Position numbers and translations under genes: made by a program. 25,433 bases of DNA from a virus. How positions within the stretch are numbered: the stretch's first letter is position 1; the number at the start of each line of letters is the position of its first letter. This document shows positions 3,622 to 23,862 of the stretch, piece after piece. The DNA lies in the IMG/VR virus record IMGVR_UViG_3300032331_001686, positions 1-25,433 of that record. The stretch is one strand, 5' to 3'. The notes under the pieces are model-generated. The model had not been told where the DNA came from and did not search any database. It saw nothing but the letters and a program-made list of their open reading frames with translations.

Positions 3622-4683
3622 ATGAAAATTTCAAAAATACCTGGATTGGGTAGATTTGGAATTTTTATTGACGATTTAGATTTCGTAAACTTAACAGATG
3701 AAGAGTGGTTAGAGATTGGCCAACTTCATCTAGAAAGTTTAGTTACAATCATTCGCAATGTAAATCTAACACCGATCGAATACGAAAATTGGATGAAAAA
3801 ATGGGGTACACCTCGTAACCTATCACTATACAGAGTTCTTAAAAAGTATAAGATAACCGGAGTCGATCAGATATATGGTAAAGATGAAGTAAATGGAATA
3901 CCTGTATCTATTGAAGATAAAAATTGGGTTAAGACCTTACTTAATTTAGTTGCAGTGGCTGAAACAAAAGGAGCTCCCGAAACACAAATTTTAAGAGTAT
4001 CTGGAAAAAAGAATGAACAAGGAGATCCTGTTGGTATGTTTGCTGAAGGCGAACTACGTTGGCATTCAAATGAGTCAGGTAACTTATTATTTGCTCCAGC
4101 AGTTAGTTTATTAGGACATCACGGAGTAGTTGGGAGTGCAACTGGGTTCTTGACAACACCTGACTGGTACGAAGAACAGACAGAAAGTTTTCGTAGCGAA
4201 CTTGATGAGATGATCATTGAGCACAGATTTACACCTGGAAGAATTAATCCCGGATTACGTGTAGAACAAGACGACATCATGTATAGGAATATGTGTCCAG
4301 CACCAATCGATTTACCGTTAGTAATAAAAAGCCCGATTGGTATTAAAGGTTTACATTATAGCGTAAACACAATTAGTACAATCAGAGGCATGTCAGAGGC
4401 AGAATCGAAATCAGTATTTGATCAAATTGACAAAACCTTGTTTGTTGACAAATACATATATGATCATTGGTACAAGCAAGATAACGACTTATGTCTATTT
4501 GATAATTCAATTACACTGCATAGGCGATTAGGTGGAATAGCTGACAGACTATGCTATAGACTACAATACGACTATGGTAAGATTGCAAAAAACAATCAGC
4601 CATACTTACAAGAACCATATGCTTCGGAATATAATGCAATACGAGATGATGTTAACAAAGTTTTAAATATCAATAATGACTAA
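3622..4683 (+). CDS. TauD/TfdA-like 2-oxoglutarate Fe(II) oxygenase-family protein
   Basis: A 353-residue protein with the layout of the TauD/TfdA branch of Fe(II)/2-oxoglutarate oxygenases. The proximal metal motif appears as 'ELRWHSNESG' (H148, N150), the distal histidine as 'FDNSITLHRR' (H299), and the 2-oxoglutarate-binding arginine as R312 in 'RLCYRLQY'. The canonical motif is H-x-D/E; here the acidic position is Asn, with Glu one residue later. The enzyme may use an altered coordination, perform a different reaction, or have lost redox activity. Substrate is unknown. It overlaps the radical SAM gene by eight bases, which suggests a shared pathway. Confidence 0.82.
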   Translation: MKISKIPGLGRFGIFIDDLDFVNLTDEEWLEIGQLHLESLVTIIRNVNLTPIEYENWMKKWGTPRNLSLYRVLKKYKITGVDQIYGKDEVNGIPVSIEDKNWVKTLLNLVAVAETKGAPETQILRVSGKKNEQGDPVGMFAEGELRWHSNESGNLLFAPAVSLLGHHGVVGSATGFLTTPDWYEEQTESFRSELDEMIIEHRFTPGRINPGLRVEQDDIMYRNMCPAPIDLPLVIKSPIGIKGLHYSVNTISTIRGMSEAESKSVFDQIDKTLFVDKYIYDHWYKQDNDLCLFDNSITLHRRLGGIADRLCYRLQYDYGKIAKNNQPYLQEPYASEYNAIRDDVNKVLNINND

Positions 4684-6184
4684 TAATTTCGATGCTATCA
4701 TTGTCACAGACACACCAACATATCCTAATTGGACTAGGGGATACGGTGCTCACAGAATAGCCACGCATTTAAGAGAAAATGGCTATTCTGTTCTTGTAGT
4801 TGATTTTTCTGCGGCCCTAACTATTGAGACATGGGAAGAAATTCTCAAGGTATCAGTTGGTTCAAATACTCGATTCGTTGGATTTAGTACAACATGGTGG
4901 CCATATAGAAAAGCAAAACATAATCAAAAACATGTAAACCTATCAGCTAATTTACGGGATCATGTTTCTGATGAATACAGACCAGAAGAAGAAACTAAGG
5001 CTAAGACATTTACAGAATTTGTAGCCATCGGCCAGGCAAAGATTTGGATTGACGTTATTAAAAAGTATAACCCCAAGACTAAGATTCTGTTAGGCGGCGC
5101 CAAGATAGATTGGTACCCAGATTTCCCAGCAGACCATTTCATGTCCGGATACTCCGAAGTTCAAATTTTAGATTTTCTACAACAACCAAGACGTATATGG
5201 AACAAACTAATAAATCACGACACTCATGCTGAGAGTAGAGACTGGGGGTGGTTAGATAGCTTTACTCGATATACAGAGTATGATCAAATACGAAGTGACG
5301 AGATACTTACACTAGAAGCCGCTAGGGGTTGTCGATTTAAATGTTTATATTGTGCGTTTCCTCTAATAGGGAAAAAAGATATTGCAAGTTACATCAAAAG
5401 TAAAGATGCTCTTTATAAAGAACTGTTAGAAAATTACGAACGTTGGGGAATCACTAGTTATTGGATTGCCGATGATACTGTAAACGACTCAACTGAAAAA
5501 TTGCAGTATATGGCAGAAGTTATTAAACTACTTCCATTTAAGCCAAAATTTAGATGTTACTTACGACTTGATATTCTTGCAATGAATCCCGAGCAAGCCC
5601 AACTATTATTAGATATAGGTATGGTCAGTTGTTTCTTTGGGATCGAAACGTTCCATCCAAAAGCCGCTAAATTGATCGGTAAAGGCATGGACCAAACAAA
5701 AAGAAAACAAGCGTTATATGATGCACAAAAGATTTGGGGTGATAAGGTAAGTGTAAACGCAGGCTACATCATAGGACTACCTAATGAAAACTATGCAGAC
5801 ATGTGTGAAAGCCATGAATGGTTTATGCGGCCCGAATCTCCAGTACACGCTGTATTTTATTTTCCGTTAATGATAAACCCAGTAGGCGTATATCCAAATC
5901 ACCCAACTAGTGAATTAGATCGTACTTACGAAAAACATGGATACACAATACCAGATTTAGAAAATCACGAATTTTGGTTTAAGGATGACGGAACTGACGT
6001 TTTAAGTTTTGCCAGGGCATTCGAAATTATTAAAAAATTTAATGATGATATGGACAATAAACCAAAACCAGTAATGGAACAGATACGATATGGTATGGGT
6101 AACAGCATGAAAGACCCCGTAATCGAATACTTTCCGAACTTAATTAGTATGCTTAAAAGAGACGCTGAAAAATCAACTAAATAG
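4676..6184 (+). CDS. Radical SAM protein, B12-binding-type architecture
   Basis: A 502-residue radical SAM enzyme. The N-terminal ~165 residues resemble the Rossmann-like domain found in front of B12-dependent radical SAM proteins ('DAIIVTDTP', 'FVGFSTTWW', 'KILLGGAKIDW'), but I see no DxHxxG cobalamin lower-ligand motif. The cluster motif is C219-x3-C223-x2-C226 (GCRFKCLYC). Later segments follow the TIM-barrel pattern: 'SYWIADDTVND', 'RCYLRLDIL', 'CFFGIETF' and 'NAGYIIGLPNEN'. Substrate is unknown. It starts inside the 3' end of the oxygenase-like gene and is followed seven bases later by iscU, so the Fe-S assembly genes may serve this [4Fe-4S] enzyme. Confidence 0.9.
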   Translation: MTNNFDAIIVTDTPTYPNWTRGYGAHRIATHLRENGYSVLVVDFSAALTIETWEEILKVSVGSNTRFVGFSTTWWPYRKAKHNQKHVNLSANLRDHVSDEYRPEEETKAKTFTEFVAIGQAKIWIDVIKKYNPKTKILLGGAKIDWYPDFPADHFMSGYSEVQILDFLQQPRRIWNKLINHDTHAESRDWGWLDSFTRYTEYDQIRSDEILTLEAARGCRFKCLYCAFPLIGKKDIASYIKSKDALYKELLENYERWGITSYWIADDTVNDSTEKLQYMAEVIKLLPFKPKFRCYLRLDILAMNPEQAQLLLDIGMVSCFFGIETFHPKAAKLIGKGMDQTKRKQALYDAQKIWGDKVSVNAGYIIGLPNENYADMCESHEWFMRPESPVHAVFYFPLMINPVGVYPNHPTSELDRTYEKHGYTIPDLENHEFWFKDDGTDVLSFARAFEIIKKFNDDMDNKPKPVMEQIRYGMGNSMKDPVIEYFPNLISMLKRDAEKSTK

Positions 6185-6190
6185 TATACT

Positions 6191-6583
6191 ATGGCATACT
6201 CAGATAAAGTTATTGATCACTATGAAAACCCGAGAAACGTTGGATCTTTTCCAAAAGATGATCCTACTATTGGCACTGGCATGGTTGGTGCTCCTGCTTG
6301 TGGCGATGTAATGAAATTACAGATAAAGGTAGATGAAGATGGTATTATTAGAGATGCTCGTTTCAAGACATATGGTTGCGGTTCAGCAATTGCCAGTAGC
6401 TCGTTGGTTACAGAGTGGGTTAAGGGTATGCATATTGATGACGCTCTTAATCTTAAAAACTCCGAAATCGCCCAAGAACTAGCATTACCTCCAGTTAAGA
6501 TTCACTGTTCAATCCTTGCAGAAGATGCTATTAAAGCGGCCGTAAATGATTACCGTAACCGACACAGCCAAAAAGAAAATTAA
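6191..6583 (+). CDS. iscU: IscU-type Fe-S cluster assembly scaffold
   Basis: A 130-residue IscU/NifU-N scaffold on which Fe-S clusters are built. All key residues are present at the classical positions: C37 and D39 (APACGD), C63 (YGCGSA), H105 and C106. The LPPVK motif at 99-103, recognised in bacterial IscU by the Hsp70 HscA, is intact. Alignment feels full length with a short charged tail. No IscS cysteine desulfurase is visible in the window, so sulfur would have to come from the host or a gene elsewhere. The tail overlaps iscA by 38 bases. Confidence 0.95.
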   Translation: MAYSDKVIDHYENPRNVGSFPKDDPTIGTGMVGAPACGDVMKLQIKVDEDGIIRDARFKTYGCGSAIASSSLVTEWVKGMHIDDALNLKNSEIAQELALPPVKIHCSILAEDAIKAAVNDYRNRHSQKEN

Positions 6584-6872
6584 ACAACTTCTTGCGCAAC
6601 GTGGCAAGGGCGTTGGCATTAGGTTAGGAGTTAAGACTACAGGATGTAGTGGTTTAGCATACACTATAGAATATGTTGACAAGTACGAAGCTGAACCGGG
6701 CGTTACTAATTATGCCCAGCCAGAATTTGCAGTACTAGTCGATGCAAAAAGTTTAGTCTACCTAGATGGACTAACAGTAGATTGGGTCCGAAATGGACTT
6801 AATGAGGGATTTGATTTCTCTAATCCAAATGAACGTGACCGTTGCGGGTGTGGCGAGTCGTTTCGAGTTTAA
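6546..6872 (+). CDS. iscA: IscA/ErpA-type Fe-S carrier (A-type)
   Basis: A 108-residue A-type carrier that transfers clusters or iron from scaffold to client enzymes. The three conserved cysteines are visible: C34 in TGCSG and C100/C102 in the C-terminal CGCGESF motif. The start at 6546 lies well inside the 3' end of iscU in another frame; this ATG gives the usual family N-terminus ('ITVTDTAKKKIKQLL'). Together with IscU and the upstream radical SAM protein this makes a compact Fe-S module. Confidence 0.94.
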   Translation: MITVTDTAKKKIKQLLAQRGKGVGIRLGVKTTGCSGLAYTIEYVDKYEAEPGVTNYAQPEFAVLVDAKSLVYLDGLTVDWVRNGLNEGFDFSNPNERDRCGCGESFRV

Positions 6873-12122: not shown

Positions 12123-14033
12123 ATGAGCAAAATCATCGGTATCGACTTAGGTACAACAAATAGCTGTGTAGCAATCCTAGAAAACGGCATTGCTAAAGTA
12201 ATTGAAAACAGCGAAGGTGCTAGAACAACACCATCAATCATTGCGTATACAGACAAAGAAATTTTAGTAGGCGCAACAGCAAAACGACAAGCAGTCACAA
12301 ATCCAAAGAATACTATCTACGCAAGCAAGCGTCTTATTGGACGTAAGTTTGACGAAAAAGAAGTACAAAAAGACATTGACTTAATGCCATACACTATTGT
12401 CAAAGCAGACAACGGTGATGCATGGATCGAAGCAAATGGCGAAAAGTTAGCGCCACAACAAGTGTCAGCTGAAGTACTTCGCAAAATGAAAAAGACTGCT
12501 GAGGACTATCTTGGACACGAAGTAACACAGGCTGTTATCACAGTACCTGCTTACTTCAATGATAGCCAACGTCAAGCTACTAAAGATGCGGGCAAGATCG
12601 CCGGCCTAGAAGTTCTACGTATTATCAACGAGCCAACAGCGGCCGCCCTTGCATATGGCGTAGATAAAGCAGACAAGAAAGATCGCAAGATTGCTGTATA
12701 CGACTTAGGTGGTGGTACATTTGATATTTCAATTATCGAAATTGCCAATATTGAAGGTGATAAACAAATTGAAGTACTTTCAACAAACGGTGATACATTC
12801 TTAGGCGGTGAAGATTTTGACCAAGCCATTATGGATCACTTAGTTGACGAGTTTAAGAAAGACAGTGGTATCGATTTAAAGAGCGACATGCTTGCCCTAC
12901 AGCGTTTGAAGGATTCTGCTGAAAAGGCTAAAATTGAATTGTCAAGCACACAACAAACCGCAGTTAACTTACCATACATCACAGCTGATGCAAGTGGTCC
13001 TAAGCATTTGAATGTAACAATCACTCGTGCTAAGTTTGAACAGATGGTTGAGAAACTAATTGAGCGTTCAATTGAGCCATGTAAGATTGCTATGAAAGAC
13101 GCTAAGGTCACAGCCGCAGACATTGACGAAGTTATCCTAGTCGGTGGACAAACACGTATGCCTAAAGTACAAGAAGCAGTTGAGAAACTATTTGGCAAGG
13201 CTCCACGTAAAGACGTTAACCCAGACGAAGCAGTTGCCGCTGGCGCCGCAGTACAAGGTGCTGTTCTAGCAGGTGACAAGACAGACGTATTGTTATTGGA
13301 CGTGACTCCATTAACATTGGGTATTGAAACAATGGGCGGTGTGTTTACCAAGTTGATTAGTAAGAATACTACTATTCCAACTAAGCACTCACAGACATTC
13401 TCAACAGCAGAAGATAACCAACCAGCTGTAACTATTAAAGTTGCACAGGGTGAACGTGAGTTGTTTAAGTACAACAAACTATTGGGAGAATTTAATCTAG
13501 AAGGTATTAACCCAGCACCTCGCGGAACACCGCAGATTGAAGTTACACTTGACATTGATGCTAACGGTATCTTGAATGTAAGCGCCAAAGATAAAAACAC
13601 TGGCAAGGAAAATAAGATTACCATTAAGTCAGATAGTGGATTGACCGAAGCTGAAATTGAACGTATGGTTCGTGAAGCTGAAGAAAACGCAGAGTCAGAT
13701 AAAAAGCAAAAAGAATTAATTGATGCTCGTAATCAAGCCGAAGGTACTGTACATAGTATTACTAAAGACTATGAAGAATACAAAGGTCAAATGACTGAAG
13801 AAGAAAAGACCAAGTTCGAAGAGCAATCTAAGAACGTAACTGAGGCATGTAAAGGCGAAGACAAAGAGGCAATTGACAAGGCAGTGCAGGCATTTTTTGA
13901 AGCCGCTCAAGTTGTGTTTGAGAAGAAGCGTGTTGCTGAAGAATCAAAGAACAATGCTCCTAACCAAGCCGATACTACTGAGCAAACAGTTGATGCCAGC
14001 TTCACAGAAGTTGACAAAGACGAAAAGAAGTAA
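12123..14033 (+). CDS. dnaK: Chaperone DnaK (Hsp70)
   Basis: A full-length 636-residue Hsp70, close to the 638 of E. coli DnaK. The nucleotide-binding domain starts '[15 protein letters not shown]' and contains '[20 protein letters not shown]', '[13 protein letters not shown]' and '[16 protein letters not shown]'. The interdomain linker is [10 protein letters not shown] (around residue 388-397). The substrate-binding domain and helical lid follow, ending in an acidic tail like that of proteobacterial DnaK. It is a DnaK type, not HscA. No dnaJ or grpE is visible, so host co-chaperones are presumably used. hsp20 and clpS follow. It could help fold capsid proteins or protect the infected cell. 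Confidence 0.98.
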
Positions 14034-14045
14034 TATAATAAACAT

Positions 14046-14093
14046 GTAGGGCGCCTAAAAGGGCCCTACAAAGTTCTTGCTTAATAAAGGAGA
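14046..14093 (+). promoter_or_regulatory. Structured hsp20 leader (hairpin plus conserved tail)
   Basis: GTAGGGC (14046-14052) pairs perfectly with GCCCTAC (14063-14069); a G (14053) is bulged and CC/GG closes a TAAAA loop. TTCTTGCTTAAT and AAAGGAGA follow, as in the dnaK leader. The stem differs at three consecutive pairs from the dnaK one while pairing is kept. It may also terminate or attenuate transcription from dnaK. Confidence 0.7.
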
Positions 14094-14098
14094 CTAAC

Positions 14099-14515
14099 AT
14101 GCAATTAAGAACTGTAGATCCGGCCGCTCTAGCCGCAGTGAGTAGAGCACTTGTAGGTTTTGATCGTTATTTCAATAACGTCAATCACGTAAATGGAAAT
14201 TATCCTCCACACAATATCGTAAAGTATGATGATACACATTATGGTATTGAAGTAGCAGTTGCTGGTTTCAGTAAAGATGAAATCACTGTAGAAGTTGATC
14301 AAGATCAACTTATGATTACAGGTAAGAAGGCAACGACTGCTGAAGGTGTAGAATATCTACATCGCGGTTTAGCCGCACGTGATTTCGAACAACAATTTAC
14401 TCTTGCTGAGTATATGGAAGTTCGCGGTGCTGAAGTTAAGGATGGTATGCTTAAGATTCAAATTGAGCGTATTGTTCCAGAAGCATTGAAACCACGTCAA
14501 ATCGAAATTAAATAA
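14099..14515 (+). CDS. Small heat-shock protein, Hsp20/IbpA-like
   Basis: A 138-residue alpha-crystallin-domain chaperone. The N-terminal part contains 'ALVGFDRYFNNV' and 'YPPHNIVKYDDTHYGIEVAV', followed by the domain hallmark 'AGFSKDEITVEV' and 'YLHRGLAARDFEQQFTLAEY', and the C-terminal I-x-I motif 'RQIEIK'. The order matches IbpA/IbpB-type proteins, which hold unfolded proteins for DnaK and ClpB. Small heat-shock proteins are also known in T4-like cyanophages. It lies between a leader hairpin and a strong terminator-like hairpin, and probably shares control with dnaK. Confidence 0.95.
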   Translation: MQLRTVDPAALAAVSRALVGFDRYFNNVNHVNGNYPPHNIVKYDDTHYGIEVAVAGFSKDEITVEVDQDQLMITGKKATTAEGVEYLHRGLAARDFEQQFTLAEYMEVRGAEVKDGMLKIQIERIVPEALKPRQIEIK

Positions 14516-14518
14516 ACA

Positions 14519-14540
14519 AAAGGGGAGGCAACTCCCCTTT
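14519..14540 (+). terminator. Strong GNRA-loop hairpin terminator
   Basis: AAAGGGGAG (14519-14527) pairs perfectly with CTCCCCTTT (14532-14540) over a GCAA tetraloop. Nine pairs, with A-rich 5' and T-rich 3' arms, directly after the hsp20 stop. Confidence 0.82.
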
Positions 14541-14556
14541 AACTAAAAAGAAAAAT

Positions 14557-14859
14557 ATGCCAAGTACAGATATTCAAATCGACGAAAAGATTAAAGTTAC
14601 TATTTCAGAACCAAAACGTTGGAAAGTAATATTGCTCAATGACGATACTACTCCGATGGAATTTGTTGTATCTTTACTCATGGAAATCTTTAGACACAAT
14701 CCGGAAACTGCTGAACGTGTAATGATGGACATTCATACAACTGGTTCAGGCATTGCAGGTGTTTATAGTTTTGAAATCGCTGAAGCAAAAGCAGTCGAAG
14801 CAACTAACCAAGCAAGAAACCAAGCATACCCACTTCAAATCAAATTGGAGGAAGAATGA
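14557..14859 (+). CDS. clpS: ClpS-like adaptor protein
   Basis: A 100-residue homologue of ClpS, the adaptor that delivers N-degron substrates to ClpAP or ClpCP. The core 'WKVILLNDDTTPMEFVVSLL' contains the NDDTTPM residues that form the N-degron pocket; 'IFRHNPETAERVMMDIHTTG' and 'GVYSFEIAEAKA' follow. A phage adaptor could redirect host proteolysis. It begins after the hsp20 terminator without a clear Shine-Dalgarno (only A-rich sequence), and its stop overlaps the heme oxygenase start (ATGA). Confidence 0.92.
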   Translation: MPSTDIQIDEKIKVTISEPKRWKVILLNDDTTPMEFVVSLLMEIFRHNPETAERVMMDIHTTGSGIAGVYSFEIAEAKAVEATNQARNQAYPLQIKLEEE

Positions 14860-15407
14860 GTCTAAGAGACCTTACACACGATGCACACAAAAATGCTGAA
14901 ACACAGCCATTTGTAAAAGTTTTATTTTCTGGAAAAATCAATCCAAAGCTATACGCAACATTTTTAAAAAATCAGCACCCGTGTTATGAAATACTAGAAG
15001 TATGTGCTATGCCACATCAACTACTACATGGGCTTCCTGACATTCGACGAGCTCCGTCGATTCTAGCAGACTTCCAAGAATTATGGTCAGAAGCAGACGG
15101 TGATCCACAAATGCTTCCAACAACTGATCAATACATCAAATATATTCTAAGTATCAAAGATCAACCAGAACGTCTTATGGCACACATTTATGTACGTCAT
15201 ATGGGAGATCTTGCTGGTGGACAAATGATCGCCAAACGTGTTCCCGGATCTGGACGTATGTACCAGTTTGAAAATCCCGATGCACTTAAAGCCGCTATCC
15301 GTGAACGTATAAATGACGACATGGCTGAAGAAGCAAAAGTTTGTTTTCAATTTGCCGCAGACATGTTTAAAGACATGATGGAATTAGTTGAGTTTGTAGA
15401 TGAGTAA
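14856..15407 (+). CDS. ho1: Heme oxygenase
   Basis: A 183-residue heme oxygenase, which opens heme to biliverdin IX-alpha, CO and iron. The proximal heme histidine is H11 in 'LTHDAHKNAE'. The distal helix with the GxxxGG pattern is 'YVRHMGDLAGGQMI' (112-125). It is shorter than cyanobacterial HO1 (about 240) because the family's C-terminal tail is missing, as in other phage versions. It overlaps clpS by four bases and the bilin reductase by eight, so biliverdin should pass straight to the next enzyme. Electrons would come from a ferredoxin not encoded here. Confidence 0.93.
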   Translation: MSLRDLTHDAHKNAETQPFVKVLFSGKINPKLYATFLKNQHPCYEILEVCAMPHQLLHGLPDIRRAPSILADFQELWSEADGDPQMLPTTDQYIKYILSIKDQPERLMAHIYVRHMGDLAGGQMIAKRVPGSGRMYQFENPDALKAAIRERINDDMAEEAKVCFQFAADMFKDMMELVEFVDE

Positions 15408-16080
15408 AGTCTGGGATAAACTGATTGAAATACAACACCTTCTAGAAGATAATTTTAGTCGAACTGGGATAGAGATTAACGAGCCCGGAATGGAACGATT
15501 CAATCAACCTGGTTGGGTTAATCGTGTTTGGACTAGTTTTAATTATCGTCGAGCACACATAGATGTAGTTGATGCTCGTGAAACTAAAGGCCTTTGGATG
15601 ATGCACTGTTGCATTTTCCCACATATACACAATCCTGCTCCGATTTATGGATTTGATGTGGTAGCAGGTAAGAATAAAATTACTGGCTGTTTCCATGATT
15701 ATAGCCCTACAGTAAATGTAGCACATCCTATGTCAACATGGTTTGCACACGAAGTTAGCAAACTCGAATGGCGTAGAGAACGTGCTTTGCCTGATTGGGC
15801 ACAGCGTATTTTTAGTAAAAATATGGTAGCCGCAGGCAACGTACAAAGCGATGAAGAATTAGATCAAATGCTAGAAATGGCTAAACGTACTTTAGCACAC
15901 TACTTAGACACAGTAGGCGAAACTAATAATACTGTAGCTGACACAACGCACGAACAGAATTATTACGCAATAAATCAAAAACAAAACCCACATACTCCTC
16001 GTGTAATGGCTAGTTTAGGGCTAGATGAGGAAGATGTGCGTGTTTTCATACAGGAATGCTTGTTCCCCGAAATACGCTAA
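15400..16080 (+). CDS. Ferredoxin-dependent bilin reductase (PcyX/PebS/PcyA family)
   Basis: A 226-residue protein of the FDBR family, which reduces biliverdin to phycobilins with ferredoxin electrons. The core 'PIYGFDVVAGKNKITGCFHD' with D86 matches the catalytic aspartate region of PcyA and PebS, and 'LWMMHCCIFPHIH' precedes it. Later come 'WRRERALPDWAQRIFS' and the ending 'FIQECLFPEIR'. Length is near that of PebS and PcyX. In a phage without photosystem genes PcyX (phycoerythrobilin synthase from phage contigs) is the most attractive subtype, but I cannot distinguish the subtype by eye, so no symbol is given. Confidence 0.9.
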   Translation: MSKVWDKLIEIQHLLEDNFSRTGIEINEPGMERFNQPGWVNRVWTSFNYRRAHIDVVDARETKGLWMMHCCIFPHIHNPAPIYGFDVVAGKNKITGCFHDYSPTVNVAHPMSTWFAHEVSKLEWRRERALPDWAQRIFSKNMVAAGNVQSDEELDQMLEMAKRTLAHYLDTVGETNNTVADTTHEQNYYAINQKQNPHTPRVMASLGLDEEDVRVFIQECLFPEIR

Positions 16081-17583: not shown

Positions 17584-17671
17584 TTCCAAGTAATACGTAC
17601 AAATAAACCAGCAATATAATTACAGTCTAGGTCAATGTAAATACTAATGAGACTTAATGGGGAGCGAATCC
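17584..17671 (+). promoter_or_regulatory. Gap before the curli-like cassette with weak promoter-like motifs
   Basis: This 88-base gap is larger than most in the window. It contains TATAAT at 17615-17620 without a matching -35 hexamer, and TGTAAATA at 17636-17643, a late-promoter-like variant. A promoter for the cassette is expected here, but neither candidate is strong. Confidence 0.35.
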
Positions 17672-18154
17672 ATGTCAAAATTAGTAGCATCATTTCTACT
17701 CGTATTTCTGCCAGCGTGTGCAATAGCCGCACCTCTTGCTGACTATACATTTAAAAGTCCAGCCTTTAGCGGTATTGGATATAGCAGTCATGTATTAACT
17801 ATTGAAAATCAAGAATATACAAGACAAAAAGCATGGCGTGATCAAGTTCAAGCCGCATTAGATAAAGCCGCGGCAGACAAACAAAACAGCAACTTACAAA
17901 AGTTTTTAAACAACTTAGAATCACGCATCTATGCACAAATTAGCCAAAACTTAGCGGCTAGTATGTTTGCTAATAGTGGTGCATGTTCAACATCATCGAG
18001 CTCATACAGTGCACCTTGCGGATCATTTGATTTCGAAGGTAATAATATTACATGGTGGAAAACTACTTCTAGCGTAGTTATGCGTGTAACTGATATAGCA
18101 GGGAAACCAACAGAAGTGGAAATTCCCCTAAGCCAATTTCAATTCGGGAATTAA
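17672..18154 (+). CDS. csgF: CsgF-like curli assembly protein
   Basis: A 160-residue secreted protein. Signal peptide 1-19 or so (SKLVASFLLVFLPACAIA) is followed by the CsgF opening 'DYTFKSPAFSGIGYSSHVL', equivalent to the F-x-N-P-x-F-G-G segment that inserts into the CsgG channel in E. coli. The middle is helical (QVQAALDKAAADKQ...), then 'LESRIYAQISQNLAASMF', and a beta-rich end ('VVMRVTDIAGKPTEVEI'). Two cysteines (ACSTSS..APCGS) may form a disulfide absent from E. coli CsgF. ATG at 17672 is chosen because GGGGAG stands seven bases before it. It precedes csgG by four bases. Confidence 0.9.
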   Translation: MSKLVASFLLVFLPACAIAAPLADYTFKSPAFSGIGYSSHVLTIENQEYTRQKAWRDQVQAALDKAAADKQNSNLQKFLNNLESRIYAQISQNLAASMFANSGACSTSSSSYSAPCGSFDFEGNNITWWKTTSSVVMRVTDIAGKPTEVEIPLSQFQFGN

Positions 18155-18158
18155 TTAA

Positions 18159-19328
18159 ATGAAAAAGACACTAATATCCCTATCAGTAATAGCAATGTTA
18201 AGTGGTTGCGCTATGATGCAAACTACTGGAGTACTGGATAAAGATCCTGAAGTTACTAGTCAAATGAAAAATGTTAAAAAGGAATTTGACACTATTCCAT
18301 CACCTGCGGCTGGAAAACCAGTTAGCGTTGCTGTATATAGTTTTACAGATAAAACAGGACAACGTCGCCCACAAGCAAACGTGGCTAGTTTGTCAACAGC
18401 AGTTACACAGGGTGCTGAATCATTCTTAATTTCAGCATTACAAAATGTAGGTAAAGGACAATGGTTTGAAGTAGTAGAGCGTGTAGGTATTGATAACTTA
18501 ACTAAAGAACGTTTAATTATTCGTCAAATGCGTGAAGCTTATGAAGGTGCTAATGCTAAACCATTGATGCCAATGCAGTTTGCTGGTATTATTATCGAAG
18601 GCGGCATTGTAGGCTATGATACAAGTACTACCAGCGGTGGCGCTGGTATGCGCATTTTTGGCATAGGCAAACAAACACAGTGGTCGACAGACACAGTTAC
18701 CGTAAGTTTACGAGCAGTTAGCGTAAACACAGGTAAAGTGCTAATGACTGTTACTGTACAAAAGACTATTCTTAGTACAGGTGACAGTGTAACAGCATTA
18801 AAATTCTTTGATAATGCAACACAGAGCTTTGAGGCAGAAGCAGGCTTAACAATCAACGAACCAGGCACATACGCAGTTAAGGCCGCTACAGAAATGGCTG
18901 TAGTTGAGTTGATTAAAGAAGGCGCTAAAAAAGGTGTGTGGGACTATAAACAAGAGCCAATTCCGGCGATGATTATCCCCCCAGCACCTATAGTACCTGC
19001 TCCCGTAATCAGCAGTGAAGCTAAACAAGAAGTTAAAGTAGAGGAGAAGAAAGATGTCGTGGTTCAATCGCAAACCCAATCCGAAACCAAAACAGAAGCC
19101 GCACCCAGTGCCGCCCCAAAAGAGTTAGAAAAGTTACCAAGTGAAGTGACCTTGAAAGAAGCAGAATACATTTATAAAGAGCCTAATGAAAAGAGTCAAA
19201 AAACTTGGCAGTTTAAGAAAGGAACCGTAGTAACAATCGTAGGAGCAGAAGGCGATTGGATCGAGGTTAGAGACGCAGAGAAGCGTAAAGGATTTGTTAA
19301 GAAGGATGTACTTATTAACAAACAATAA
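18159..19328 (+). CDS. csgG: CsgG-like curli secretion pore with C-terminal SH3-like domain
   Basis: A 389-residue outer-membrane lipoprotein. The lipobox LSGC puts the acylated cysteine at C17. Residues about 53-262 match the CsgG core: 'VAVYSFTDKTGQ', 'STAVTQGAESFLISAL', 'WFEVVERVGIDNLTKERLI', 'IIEGGIVGYD', 'FGIGKQTQWSTDTVTVSLR' and 'VNTGKVLMTVTVQKTIL'. The nonameric CsgG pore exports curli subunits across the outer membrane. E. coli CsgG ends near here; this protein adds a Pro/Glu/Lys linker (265-330) and an SH3b-like domain (330-386, 'EAEYIYKEPNEKSQKTWQFK', 'GDWIEVRD', 'KGFVKKDVL'), probably periplasmic. It pairs with csgF directly upstream; no csgE is seen. Confidence 0.93.
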   Translation: MKKTLISLSVIAMLSGCAMMQTTGVLDKDPEVTSQMKNVKKEFDTIPSPAAGKPVSVAVYSFTDKTGQRRPQANVASLSTAVTQGAESFLISALQNVGKGQWFEVVERVGIDNLTKERLIIRQMREAYEGANAKPLMPMQFAGIIIEGGIVGYDTSTTSGGAGMRIFGIGKQTQWSTDTVTVSLRAVSVNTGKVLMTVTVQKTILSTGDSVTALKFFDNATQSFEAEAGLTINEPGTYAVKAATEMAVVELIKEGAKKGVWDYKQEPIPAMIIPPAPIVPAPVISSEAKQEVKVEEKKDVVVQSQTQSETKTEAAPSAAPKELEKLPSEVTLKEAEYIYKEPNEKSQKTWQFKKGTVVTIVGAEGDWIEVRDAEKRKGFVKKDVLINKQ

Positions 19329-19330
19329 GG

Positions 19331-19364
19331 TGTTGTTTTTCCAACAGTGTAAATTTTTTTACAC
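19331..19364 (+). terminator. Double hairpin after csgG, likely terminator
   Basis: TGTTG (19331-19335) pairs with CAACA (19342-19346), and GTGTAA (19347-19352) pairs with TTACAC (19359-19364) around a T-rich loop. Alternatively AGGTGT (19328-19333) pairs with ACACCT (19361-19366). The region separates csgFG from the fibre genes. Confidence 0.55.
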
Positions 19365-19393
19365 CTAAAGATAACGGAAAAATAACAGCAGAG

Positions 19394-19493
19394 TATAATT
19401 TATTAAGATGTAACATTAAATAATTTTGTAGCGAGAACATAACCGAGGAGAGATCCTCAAGGAACTTGATTGTGAATAGAAAGCAATCATTTT
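19394..19493 (+). promoter_or_regulatory. Possible promoter and structured leader of the curlin-like gene
   Basis: TATAAT at 19394-19399 could be a -10 box, but no good -35 stands 17 bases upstream. If used it gives an unusually long leader for this genome (about 88 bases). The leader folds locally: GAGGA (19445-19449) pairs with TCCTC (19454-19458), and TTGATTG (19466-19472) with CAATCA (19484-19489). No clear Shine-Dalgarno precedes the ATG at 19494; GGAG at 19447-19450 is in the first stem, so the leader may regulate translation. Confidence 0.4.
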
Positions 19494-20348
19494 ATGAAGA
19501 TGGATAAAAGTATGAAAGGCGCTGGTGGGTTGTCGAGAAAATTACTCACTATTCTGGTGTTGTCTGCAATGTCAACATTGGGACATGCGGCTGATAATAG
19601 CATTTACATTGACCAATCTGGCGATTTCGCTAACGTTACGATTAATCAAGACGGGGCTGGTAACCAAGTAAAAGGCTTAACATCAGCAGTTTCTACAAAC
19701 AGTTCAACTGATCCTGCTCTTATTAGAGGTGATGGTGTTAATGTTAATATTAACCAAACTGGAAGTAATAACAAACTAGGTTTAGGAATTGATGCTACTA
19801 TGGGTACTAGCAAGAGTGTTGATTTAACTTATAGTACCGTTAATAGCAGTAACATAAGTGGAAGCAACAACTTGGCAACATTCCAGCTAGGTACTAGTAG
19901 TGCAAGAGCAATTGACACGATTGTTAATGTTACACAACTAAACGGTGGTAACACAGCATACGTAACAATGACCGGCAGTGATAATCAGTTAACTGCTACA
20001 CAAAGCGGTGGTAGTGCTACATTGATTTCTAGTGTGGCTGCAACAGGTACTAGACAAGATATTACAACAGCCGGTGGTACTGGTAACTCTGTTACTACAA
20101 ACTTAACTGGCGATAACGGTAATGTTTATGTTAACGTAATGGGTGCAACTAACACCATTGATATTGCTCAAAGTGGTGCTGGCGGCTCGACAGGGCATCA
20201 AGCATGGATGGATATCAATGGAACAGGTAATAGTGTAACATTAGCACAATCTGGAAATAATCAGGCTAACGTGTTTAATTTAAGAGTCGGTAGTGCTGGA
20301 ACAGCATCTAACACTAATACATATAATATAACACAAACTGCTAGATAA
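19494..20348 (+). CDS. Secreted curlin-repeat-like protein (candidate amyloid fibre subunit)
   Basis: A 284-residue exported protein. The signal peptide covers about 1-32 (positive N-region, 'LLTILVLSAMSTLGHA'). The mature part is Asn/Gly/Ser/Thr/Gln-rich with repeating strands of curlin type: 'NSIYIDQSGDFANVTINQDG', 'GVNVNINQTGSNNKLGLG', 'NTIDIAQSGAG', 'NSVTLAQSGNNQANVF' and 'NTYNITQTAR', i.e. units of roughly N-x-I/V-x-I-x-Q-x-G-x-x-N. Such repeats form stacked beta-arches in CsgA/CsgB. Repeat spacing is less regular than in CsgA. Cargo for the CsgG pore is the obvious reading. Starts at 19494, 19500 or 19512 are possible. Confidence 0.87.
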   Translation: MKMDKSMKGAGGLSRKLLTILVLSAMSTLGHAADNSIYIDQSGDFANVTINQDGAGNQVKGLTSAVSTNSSTDPALIRGDGVNVNINQTGSNNKLGLGIDATMGTSKSVDLTYSTVNSSNISGSNNLATFQLGTSSARAIDTIVNVTQLNGGNTAYVTMTGSDNQLTATQSGGSATLISSVAATGTRQDITTAGGTGNSVTTNLTGDNGNVYVNVMGATNTIDIAQSGAGGSTGHQAWMDINGTGNSVTLAQSGNNQANVFNLRVGSAGTASNTNTYNITQTAR

Positions 20349-20349
20349 T

Positions 20350-20371
20350 GTAAACGGGGTAACCCGTTTAC
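20350..20371 (+). terminator. Perfect GNRA-loop hairpin after the curlin-like gene
   Basis: GTAAACGGG (20350-20358) pairs perfectly with CCCGTTTAC (20363-20371) over a GTAA tetraloop, one base after the stop codon. It could attenuate transcription so that the fibre subunit is made in excess over the genes downstream. Confidence 0.8.
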
Positions 20372-20392
20372 ATTTCTAATAAAAGGTGATGA

Positions 20393-21499
20393 ATGAAATT
20401 CCAAAATACGCTGATTCTAATCTCGATGTTTATCTCGCAGATATCTTACGGTGCAATAGGAACCGTAACGGAACAGGTCAATACCCCTGCATCGATACAG
20501 AGAAAAAATCAAACGCTCACTGGTGCAAAAGGTACTGGTGTGGAAATGGACGATGCAATCAAAACTCAATCAGGGAAGTTAGGAATAACATTCCAGGATG
20601 ATACCCGAGTTCAGGTTAACGAAAATAGTAAACTTGTTATTGACGATTTTGTATACGATCCTAAAACAAAAACTGGTAAACTAGGTGCCAAGATTGCACT
20701 CGGTACTGTTCGCTATGCTAGCGGACAAATTGCTAAAAACGCACCACAGAACGTAGCACTAAGTACACCAACGGCAACTGTAGCAGTACGTGGTACAGAC
20801 TTTACAGCCTCAGTAGACGAACTGGGCCAAAGCACATTTGTATTATTACCTAGCTGTCCAACTGATCGCCCGACCCGCACACTTAAAGATATTGAATCAA
20901 CATGTAAAGTTGGACAGATTGAAATTTTTACAGAAATGGGTAGTGTTATTTTAAATCAGCCATTCCAAGCAACTAAAGTCACCACCAGGATGTTAGCACC
21001 TAGTAAACCTGTAACACTACAACTTAGTGAAAATGCAATTGAAACACTGCTGATGTCCACTCCTGAAGAACTGAAAGCTAGTAAAGAAGATAATCGTAGA
21101 ATAATGAAAGGACCATTAGACGTTGATTTTCTTAAAGAGCAAGGTCTTACTAATGCGTTAGATGATAGCGCAAAACAGTTTTATCAAGATCGTCTTAGTC
21201 AAAACTTTTTAGACAACAGTTTCTTAGCAAACTTATTTGATATAATGGGTAATCAACTTAACGAAAAATTATTAGCTGAAGTTGATAGTATGTTGCCAGA
21301 CTATAAAAAATCCAGTGGTATTACTGTAAGTAAAGATGATCCAACTGTGTCATTATGTCGTGACAACGGTGCTGACCGCATTTGTATTACTACTCCGCAA
21401 ACACAAAACTCAACGCTATATATGACACAAAATAATATAGAGTTTAAAAATCGTGTTAACCAAGGCGGTAACACTATCATTACTATTGTACAAAAATGA
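20393..21499 (+). CDS. Secreted FecR-domain protein
   Basis: A 368-residue protein with signal peptide 1-20 (FQNTLILISMFISQISYG). Residues about 25-175 form a FecR domain: 'GVEMDDAIKTQSGKLGITFQ', 'DDTRVQVNENSKLVIDDFVY', 'KIALGTVRYASGQI' and 'TPTATVAVRGTDFTASVDE'. This fold in the periplasm senses or binds surface components; it lacks the cytoplasmic anti-sigma helix of true FecR. The middle is helical (about 215-310), and the last 35 residues ('STLYMTQNNIEFKNRVNQGG', 'TIITIVQK') look like one curlin-type unit, which links it to its neighbours. It overlaps the next gene by four bases. It could be a minor subunit, nucleator or assembly factor. Confidence 0.88.
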   Translation: MKFQNTLILISMFISQISYGAIGTVTEQVNTPASIQRKNQTLTGAKGTGVEMDDAIKTQSGKLGITFQDDTRVQVNENSKLVIDDFVYDPKTKTGKLGAKIALGTVRYASGQIAKNAPQNVALSTPTATVAVRGTDFTASVDELGQSTFVLLPSCPTDRPTRTLKDIESTCKVGQIEIFTEMGSVILNQPFQATKVTTRMLAPSKPVTLQLSENAIETLLMSTPEELKASKEDNRRIMKGPLDVDFLKEQGLTNALDDSAKQFYQDRLSQNFLDNSFLANLFDIMGNQLNEKLLAEVDSMLPDYKKSSGITVSKDDPTVSLCRDNGADRICITTPQTQNSTLYMTQNNIEFKNRVNQGGNTIITIVQK

Positions 21500-23862
21500 T
21501 AATAACAACAAAGACTGATCAGCGTAACGAACAAATAAAAGACTACTGGCGTAGATTTCACGCTGAAAAACAAGCTCTTTATAAAAAACAAATAATAAAG
21601 GGCTGTATTATCGCACCATTTATTTTTTTGTTACCATATATCTTTGCAATTTTGTTAGTATTGATATCGGGAAAATCTTTTGCTACTGGCTTAGTAGACT
21701 TAAAGTTTGGACAATCACAGATAGCAGACAGTCAATGGAACGTACAGGCTTGTACACAAACAGCGACTTGCCAAATCTATAGTAAGAATCCTGGAACAGT
21801 ATATAAGATTCCTTGGTGGAGTGGACAACTTGCATGGTCGACTGGCGACTATGTTGCTTTTGTAACTACTGGCGATGCTACTAATCCTTACAACGCTATC
21901 CAATACAATGCTAATGGCACACAGAAAGCAGTAATGGGTACTGGACATATTATTAACATGGGTGCGGACTATTTCTTCTTTGTTGGTAATGATAACGATA
22001 CCGGGCAGTTGTTTAGTATGACACAGGGTTTCGCTAACACAAGCGGAGTTACATGGACTGGGACATTAAATCCTACAGTAACACAGGTTAATACATACGC
22101 TACTAATGGATCAACAACACCACTTGCGGCAGGACAAACTGTAGCACCTTCTGCTCCTGTAAGAACAGTAACAGGAACAGCAGTAACATATACAACAAGA
22201 AATGTAGTAAGCGGTAACACTACTACAGTCTATCGTACTCCCGTAACTACGACAACATACAGTGATAATACAACATCTAGTAGCAACGGAACCGAAACAC
22301 TTTATCAAACTCGTGTTACATCTAACGTAGTAACTACTAAAGTTGTTAACGGCGTACTAACAACCACTACAACTCCTATCACTAAAGTTACAACTAATGG
22401 TGTAACTACAGTTGAAGCTAACGGTCAAGCAACTACTACAACACAAAATGTACTACAGGGATTAATTTTCAAAGTACATGACTTTGATGCTTACACTTAT
22501 AGTTGCGGAATATTTGGCTGTGTTAGAAATTTATTAGGGCCATATCGTGTGCCCAGTCTAACTCCAGGTAACTACAGTACAAACTATACAGGCAGAACTA
22601 CTAACGGTATCTATGTTCCAACTAACGGATCATTTCCAAATATGGGAGACGGAACACTTGTAGCTTATACAGGAACTATCACAGCTCCAATAACAACTGG
22701 GCATCCTGCTGGCAGTGTTTATAGATTATATTTTTACAGTAATAGCGATGACGGATTTGTACTAGACATAAACGGCAGTAGAATAATTAATGATCAATCA
22801 ACTAATCAGTGGCAAAGTGTATTTGGTTATACTGCTTCGGGATGGATCGACGTAGTTGCTGGACAAACATACAATCTCGATGCGTGGTATTGGCAAGACT
22901 TAGGCGGGTACGGAATGAAGTTCTATTGGGACTATGGTGCTGGCCGGATGTTAGTTCCTAACTCGGCATTTACCACAGGACGTATTGTAGAAACAACTAC
23001 TATTGATACTACTGGTGTTTCTTATTCTAATGTTAATTTAATAGATATGTCGGGCACTTCGGTTTCAATGTATCCAGATTATGTTACAATTGGTAATGGT
23101 ACTACAGGCGAAATGATATTTGGATCTGGAAGTGCAGTTACTATTAATCAACAGACTAAAGTTGATGTGTGGACTAACAAAACAATCACCGATGGTAATA
23201 AAATTTACATTGACCAAGTTAGTGGAAGTAACAATACAGTTACTATGGACCAGGATGGCAATAAGAATTTAATCAATGCTACTATTAATGGAAATAGCAA
23301 TAATATAATATCTAAACAAGGTACTATTGGCACAGGACAAAACGAGATTAGAATTAACCTCGTTGGAGACAGTAACACACTAGATATCAAACAAGCAAGA
23401 ACTACACAGGGGACTGCCATAGGCACAAACGGACACTATCAAAATGTAGATGTCACCGGCTATAATAACACAGTTACTACACAACAAACTAACACAGGCG
23501 GTGTCGGTGGCCACTACATGGAAACTACAGTTAACGGTAATCAAAATAATATTACTGCTCGTCAAACAGATAACGGTAATAAAATAATGTTTACCAGCAT
23601 CACTGGCAATAACAACACAGTTGACGCTGTACAGAAAGGTACAGGACAACATTATTTAGATACCAAGTTAACTGGCAATAGCAACAGCGTTTCAGCAGTT
23701 CAAGAAGGAACAACAGCTAATCGTGCTACGTTAGACTTGACTAATGCAGGCGGCCCGGCTAGTGTCATTTTACAGCAGAACGGTGGACAAAATGTTACTG
23801 TTACAACATCCTGCGCTACCGCCGGCGGATGTGCGCCAATCACCATAAGACAAGGCTATTAA
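21496..23862 (+). CDS. Large protein with membrane segment, PA14-like domain and curlin-like repeats
   Basis: A 788-residue surface protein. A charged N-terminus (1-33) precedes a hydrophobic stretch (34-57), either membrane anchor or long signal. Residues 65-190 are beta-rich with two cysteines. A Thr/Val/Asn-rich stretch follows (195-320). Residues about 320-490 resemble a PA14 domain ('YRLYFYSNSDDGFVLDINGS', 'GWIDVVAGQTYNLDAWYWQD', 'GMKFYWDYG'), a sugar-binding fold in adhesins. Residues 566-788 are curlin-like repeats ('NKIYIDQVSGSNNTVTMDQD', 'NSNNIISKQG', 'NTLDIKQ', 'NTVTTQQ', 'NNITARQ', 'NTVDAVQ', 'NSVSAVQ'). The repeat start mirrors the mature start of the protein at 19494. It may be an adhesive tip or anchor of the fibre. 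Confidence 0.87.
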   Translation: MIITTKTDQRNEQIKDYWRRFHAEKQALYKKQIIKGCIIAPFIFLLPYIFAILLVLISGKSFATGLVDLKFGQSQIADSQWNVQACTQTATCQIYSKNPGTVYKIPWWSGQLAWSTGDYVAFVTTGDATNPYNAIQYNANGTQKAVMGTGHIINMGADYFFFVGNDNDTGQLFSMTQGFANTSGVTWTGTLNPTVTQVNTYATNGSTTPLAAGQTVAPSAPVRTVTGTAVTYTTRNVVSGNTTTVYRTPVTTTTYSDNTTSSSNGTETLYQTRVTSNVVTTKVVNGVLTTTTTPITKVTTNGVTTVEANGQATTTTQNVLQGLIFKVHDFDAYTYSCGIFGCVRNLLGPYRVPSLTPGNYSTNYTGRTTNGIYVPTNGSFPNMGDGTLVAYTGTITAPITTGHPAGSVYRLYFYSNSDDGFVLDINGSRIINDQSTNQWQSVFGYTASGWIDVVAGQTYNLDAWYWQDLGGYGMKFYWDYGAGRMLVPNSAFTTGRIVETTTIDTTGVSYSNVNLIDMSGTSVSMYPDYVTIGNGTTGEMIFGSGSAVTINQQTKVDVWTNKTITDGNKIYIDQVSGSNNTVTMDQDGNKNLINATINGNSNNIISKQGTIGTGQNEIRINLVGDSNTLDIKQARTTQGTAIGTNGHYQNVDVTGYNNTVTTQQTNTGGVGGHYMETTVNGNQNNITARQTDNGNKIMFTSITGNNNTVDAVQKGTGQHYLDTKLTGNSNSVSAVQEGTTANRATLDLTNAGGPASVILQQNGGQNVTVTTSCATAGGCAPITIRQGY

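Follow-up and report, generated by a model that had tools for sequence, protein, structure and literature searches.

An essentially fixed heme oxygenase-PcyX gene pair in a clade of uncultivated large phages, and a candidate bilin acceptor in the tail fibres of relatives

Pairs of heme oxygenase (HO) and the bilin reductase PcyX are already known from phages of heterotrophic bacteria, including the cultured pelagiphage Mosig. Wegner et al (2024; PMC11480375) described hemO-pcyA/X-valaS cassettes from both marine and freshwater phages and considered PcyX to be known only from marine ones. What bilin genes do for phages whose hosts are not photosynthetic was 'still enigmatic' in that study. For cyanophages, the purpose of PebS, PcyA, HO1, and CpeT has also been called a mystery or unresolved (PMC3037559). 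Given the Mosig pair and the cassettes of Wegner et al, an HO/reductase pair is by itself no novelty. What is new here is that HO-PcyX is essentially fixed, within a larger gene block, in a clade of phages, and that relatives encode a phycobiliprotein-like domain in their tails.

The pair was found in IMG/VR virus record IMGVR_UViG_3300032331_001686, of which we analysed positions 1-25,433 (a stretch of 25,433 nt, hereafter the window). On the plus strand, an ORF of 183 aa at 14856..15407 matched the heme oxygenase family (HO/HemO; Pfam PF01126, 2.4e-21), and an ORF of 226 aa at 15400..16080 matched the ferredoxin-dependent bilin reductases (PF05996, Fe_bilin_red, 1.4e-15). Both matches were above the curated cut-offs, and the reductase gene begins 8 bases within the HO gene. 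Apart from its family profile, the HO ORF has the proximal heme His and the distal GDxxGGQ helix of an HO-1-type enzyme, both conserved among its relatives, and its best solved relative is heme oxygenase 5kzl (1.6e-12). We found relatives encoded at 376 IMG/VR loci, with a median dN/dS of ~0.07 for PcyX and ~0.06 for HO, indicating strongly purifying selection; this is therefore not a chance pair of ORFs. Pfam matches, catalytic residues, and purifying selection thus bear out the overlapping HO and bilin reductase genes proposed in an earlier, sequence-only reading of this DNA, and the identities of the two enzymes, as judged from their sequences, are near certain. The pathway looks intact and is predicted to lead from heme to the pink pigment phycoerythrobilin (PEB).

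Regarding the reductase subtype, comparison with solved structures gave PcyX_EBK42635 (5OWG) as the nearest relative (1.3e-72), followed by PcyA (2.8e-12). In a reductase tree that included PcyA of cyanophage and Synechocystis as well as PebS of P-SSM2, all PcyX rows formed a single group (support 97/96) that contained the window reductase. It was separate from P-SSM2 PebS, whose branch is very long, and within the PcyX group it sat among large-phage rows, separately from the marine sequences of Mosig and EBK42635. At the sites equivalent to E76, H88, and D105 of PcyA, the window reductase has Asp55, His69, and Asp86, i.e., it has Asp rather than the Glu76 equivalent of PcyA, and it retains the His that is missing from the PebA-like lineage of PebS. 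Asp55, described as the PcyX-specific catalytic residue (Wegner et al, 2024; PMC11480375), was present in all 82 PcyX-sampled sequences (the window counted) and in 43 of the 44 readable sequences sampled through the neighbouring gene ibpA. The reductase is PcyX, as the sequence-only reading had supposed, and its product from biliverdin and ferredoxin is predicted to be PEB.

Next, we considered the host. In a long relative, the capsid protein shares 66-71% identity with those of Rak2/CBB-like jumbo phages infecting Sinorhizobium, Vibrio, and Erwinia, and, among the matches listed, the closest bacterial homologues of the Fe-S scaffold protein IscU of the window (6191..6583, plus strand; TIGR01999, 8.5e-67) were mostly from Burkholderiales, which within those matches is a hint to the host. 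Photosystem genes (psbA/psbD) were absent from the 20 longer related contigs, as had been suspected from the window. Since a search for close matches in 84,980 bacterial species, with one genome per species, gave no PcyX, bacterial PcyX offered no link to a host. Taken together, the capsid neighbours, IscU, and the absence of photosystem genes support a heterotrophic host, likely a proteobacterium. Many of the relatives come from metagenomes that, from their IMG numbers, we take to be freshwater, which contrasts with a marine-only distribution of PcyX. It could still be proposed that the host is a cyanobacterium in which these genes maintain phycobilisomes, as in cyanophages, because the tail domain described below, like related reductases, also occurs in cyanophages. 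We rejected this reading, already disfavoured, as scarcely credible: psbA/psbD were found in 0/20 contigs, the ISC-type IscU is nearest to Burkholderiales among the matches listed, the nearest capsids are those of phages that infect Sinorhizobium, Vibrio, and Erwinia, the PcyX clade is distinct from PcyA and PebS, and 11 of 22 related records encode AlaS, an enzyme that cyanobacteria are not known to have. Tree and host evidence therefore place the reductase neither with PebS or PcyA nor in a phage of cyanobacteria, the combination that the sequence-only reading had set against its own proposal.

One relative (L440) departs from the rest of this picture. It carries the same gene block, with a reductase gene ~1.3 kb past IbpA, but this reductase shows only 43% identity and has Glu at the Asp55 site. 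Based on this substitution, it is possibly a PcyA-type (PCB-making) variant in situ, and product specificity may have switched inside the cassette. Such a variant bears on the idea that the bilin acts on a host protein, with PEB, or the PcyA-type product in variants, being loaded into a host bacteriophytochrome or another bilin-binding protein and altering signalling. Freshwater Burkholderiales, which are likely hosts, can carry bacteriophytochromes, although Pelagibacter, the host of Mosig, is not known to have a phytochrome. In line with this idea, the reductase of freshwater phage CB_2 makes PCB that assembles phytochrome (PMC11480375). Against it, a PHY domain was found in none of the 22 phage records. 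This discards a phage-encoded phytochrome as the sensor that the sequence-only reading imagined being fed by the bilin and leaves the host phytochrome as the possible form of that suggestion; overall, we consider action on a host protein unlikely.

We then examined the gene neighbourhood. Directly upstream of HO-PcyX, in the window and in nearly all relatives, lies a chaperone and N-degron module (12123-14859, plus strand) composed of DnaK (12123..14033; PF00012, 9.7e-260, and synteny), the small heat-shock protein IbpA/Hsp20 (14099..14515; PF00011, 4e-19, and an IbpA-like NCBIfam match), and the N-end-rule adaptor ClpS (14557..14859; PF02617, 1.5e-29), whose gene overlaps the start of HO by 4 bases. 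The order DnaK-IbpA-ClpS-HO-PcyX was retained in 77/77 loci holding all five genes. Using IbpA as a sampling handle independent of PcyX, we found HO in all 48 loci of the clade and the reductase in all 45 that had room for it, i.e., that did not end first. This presence shows that HO-PcyX belongs to the core gene set of the clade rather than being a sporadic extra, and we report here as new that the pair is essentially fixed in these large uncultivated phages, a clade related to Rak2/CBB-like jumbo phages. PcyX had a median identity of 76% to its window counterpart and HO one of 66%; these values were taken from the IbpA-selected loci, as PcyX-selected loci are a biased sample.

Further downstream in the window there is a curli-type cluster (17657-23862) with CsgF, CsgG, a FecR-domain protein, and two curlin-like candidates, and CsgG was found in 47 of the 56 related loci with enough downstream sequence. 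Pelagimyophages are known to carry curli genes, with CsgA/B reported missing (PMC7029224). Curlin-like subunits may be present in the window, since proteins at 19494-20348 and 21496-23862 gave weak curlin-repeat matches, below cut-off. Upstream, a TauD-type 2OG oxygenase is followed by a radical SAM protein with a weak B12-binding match (3622-6184), the two overlapping by 8 bases.

The neighbourhood is relevant to a second explanation, namely that the gain lies in iron and heme recycling. HO would free iron from the heme of the host and so supply the iron enzymes of the phage (class Ia RNR, 2OG oxygenases, and Fe-S proteins), and PcyX would do no more than clear biliverdin, relieving product inhibition. 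The window does encode IscU, an IscA-type Fe-S protein (6546..6872, plus strand; TIGR02011, 1.3e-41), the TauD-type oxygenase, the radical SAM protein, and NrdB; in Mosig, HO-PcyX adjoins three genes for 2OG-Fe(II) oxygenases, a fourth such gene and one for a ferrochelatase are found nearby, and iron supply has been proposed earlier (PMC11480375). However, iron release requires neither the strictly conserved four-electron active site of PcyX nor its retention in every IbpA-sampled locus with room, and it is HO that diverges more. In addition, a strong match to 5-aminolevulinate synthase (AlaS, Shemin pathway) lies elsewhere in 11 of the 22 long related records (e.g., L084 and L085), suggesting that these phages may both make and degrade heme; under iron recycling, heme would be made only to be destroyed. 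As PcyX is always kept where there is room and diverges less than HO, we argue that the bilin itself matters, and iron release as the real gain, which the sequence-only reading had offered, seems rather unlikely. A third explanation is that PEB or its intermediates stay unbound in the infected cell and serve there as small molecules, whether as antioxidant, light screen, or electron sink. The pathway uses up O2, heme, and reducing power, and the pair sits in the stress-gene block DnaK-IbpA-ClpS. Still, biliverdin alone would do for this purpose, and neither the conserved specificity of PcyX nor the tail domains would be explained, so that we regard a free-molecule role as quite improbable.

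Those tail domains came from the longer relatives. In four of them, PF00502 (phycobiliproteins) gave weak matches within ORFs of 2,300-4,100 aa, which turned out to carry tandem repeats of ~145 aa each with a conserved Cys-x-Arg-Asp. A profile of the repeat matched 12 of 22 records, and the domain was present in 11/12 of the reductase-bearing IMG/VR contigs of at least 120 kb. The largest contig has 41 copies, and single ORFs of 6,682 and 6,792 aa (L294 and L295) each hold ~30 or more repeats. Of three repeat-bearing ORFs tested, two matched families of tail fibres, and the remaining one matched a family of virion structural proteins; one repeat-bearing ORF is also homologous, in another region, to a Mosig tail fibre. 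The sequence-only reading had seen no light-harvesting genes, which holds for the window, but the phycobiliprotein-like domains in relatives' tail fibres are a candidate bilin acceptor that it had missed. The window, as a 25 kb fragment, holds no tail gene with this domain, and we infer its presence in the window's own phage from the relatives. Contigs of the clade sampled through the capsid have the domain without the reductase. We attribute this to fragmentation, the contigs ending before the reductase locus, which lies ~180 kb from the capsid gene and just past the end of G022 (G022 and G007 overlap and share an identical domain stretch).

To assess whether the domain is a phycobiliprotein relative, we modelled two different copies with AlphaFold (pLDDT 81 and 89), both runs being built on one shared alignment and hence not fully independent. 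The top 50 PDB matches of each model in Foldseek were all phycobiliproteins or bilin-binding derivatives, with E-values of only ~0.005, and VIA-align, which covers only the folds in its list, gave best Z-scores of 15.6 and 16.0 (rmsd 2.8 and 2.6 over 127 and 136 residues). The models thus predict a phycobiliprotein (globin-like) fold. At the sequence level, the best copy matched PF00502 above the Pfam cut-off (1.3e-7, 32.1 bits), and this was the sole recurring Pfam family, at E <=0.1 in 8/37 copies, with most copies under the cut-off. When the domain profile was compared with PDB sequences, 24 of 25 matches were phycocyanin alpha chains (best E only 0.017), and the domain Cys aligned on the bilin Cys of phycocyanin alpha. 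In a search with masked motif columns, Cys-x-Arg-Asp was kept in 80/95 copies from the reductase-bearing phages (Cys in 87/95, Arg in 85/97, and Asp in 92/97) and in 14/14 copies from four cyanophages. The domain could alternatively be a structural reuse of the phycobiliprotein fold, but a purely structural domain has no obvious need to retain the bilin triad. Searches of open-licence PMC text gave no previous description of a phage tail with phycobiliprotein domains.

The distribution of the domain among phages was examined with three queries (E <=0.01), which matched 201 to 397 of 50,697 phage records. All were Synechococcus or Prochlorococcus phages and other cyanophages, apart from one seawater virus (AG-345-P14) that carries PebS. 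Phages of host MED4 among the matches listed (P-HM1, P-HM2, and MED4-213) all have PebS, and many Synechococcus phages have the domain and no reductase; these could use host bilin. The domain therefore occurs where bilin is available from host or phage, a co-occurrence that is confounded by shared ancestry and has exceptions in the form of reductases without the domain: PcyX occurs without it in Mosig (complete, SAR11 host) and in a pelagiphage-type contig of 177 kb, and P-SSM2 has PebS and no domain in its first 54 kb. The jumbo isolates nearest by capsid have neither reductase nor domain. A search for bilin lyases of the CpeT and CpeS types found neither in the 22 records, which, like the exceptions above, speaks against the tail as acceptor.

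Our preferred explanation, which we put forward tentatively as plausible though short of probable, is that in this clade HO-PcyX makes PEB that is attached to the phycobiliprotein-like domains of the phage's own tail fibres. HO would open heme, with release of iron and CO, to give biliverdin IXalpha, and PcyX would reduce biliverdin to PEB with four electrons from host ferredoxin. The host is assumed as donor because a phage Fer2 domain was seen only in Mosig, and phage ferredoxin was accordingly set aside. PEB would then attach through the conserved Cys of Cys-x-Arg-Asp, so that the virion tail would carry bilin made during infection. Candidate roles of a tail bilin, as putative as its attachment, are photoprotection, stabilisation of the fold, and light-dependent adsorption. 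In its broader form, that phages of non-photosynthetic bacteria have pigmented tails, with PEB from HO-PcyX on dozens of domains, and that cyanophages load host bilin or the product of PebS or PcyA, the proposal is possible but more doubtful. If true, virus particles would include phycobiliprotein-like domains, and phage bilin genes would have a structural rather than a metabolic purpose. A tail acceptor could, moreover, explain what PebS, PcyA, HO1, and CpeT are for in cyanophages, and a candidate acceptor in the phage's own virion makes the question of the bilin genes directly testable.

Finally, we compared the locus with known systems. Rak2/CBB/GAP32-like jumbo phages and Sinorhizobium phage Phosso share 66-71% identity with the clade in the major capsid protein but, unlike it, these isolates lack both the reductase and the tail domain. 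Compared with phycobiliproteins (PF00502; phycocyanin alpha, phycoerythrin, and the ApcE bilin domain), the tail domain shares the predicted fold and the bilin Cys-x-Arg-Asp motif, with matching spacing to the next Tyr and Gly. In contrast to them, it is only ~10-20% identical, has an extra invariant Asp and Tyr, was seen without partner subunits or linkers, and occurs as tandem repeats in giant phage tail fibres. Cyanophages with PebS or PcyA also encode HO together with a reductase, whereas their hosts make phycobilins, and both residues and tree put their reductases outside PcyX. In the hemO-pcyA/X-valaS cassettes of the CB_2 type, HO and reductase stand together as they do here, but the AlaS of our relatives lies elsewhere (11/22 records), and the CB_2 reductase is a PcyA without Asp55 (PMC11480375), a residue that many of our relatives have. 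Another of the closest systems is Mosig EXVC030M, which infects a heterotroph, has the same overlapping two-gene HO-reductase cassette, and shares with PcyX_EBK42635 (5OWG) and the window the same PcyX active-site residues. Its PcyX is ~50% identical to that of the window, which belongs to a separate large-phage group within PcyX, and its cassette sits beside neck genes and 2OG oxygenases, whereas in our clade the pair lies behind DnaK-IbpA-ClpS in large phages.
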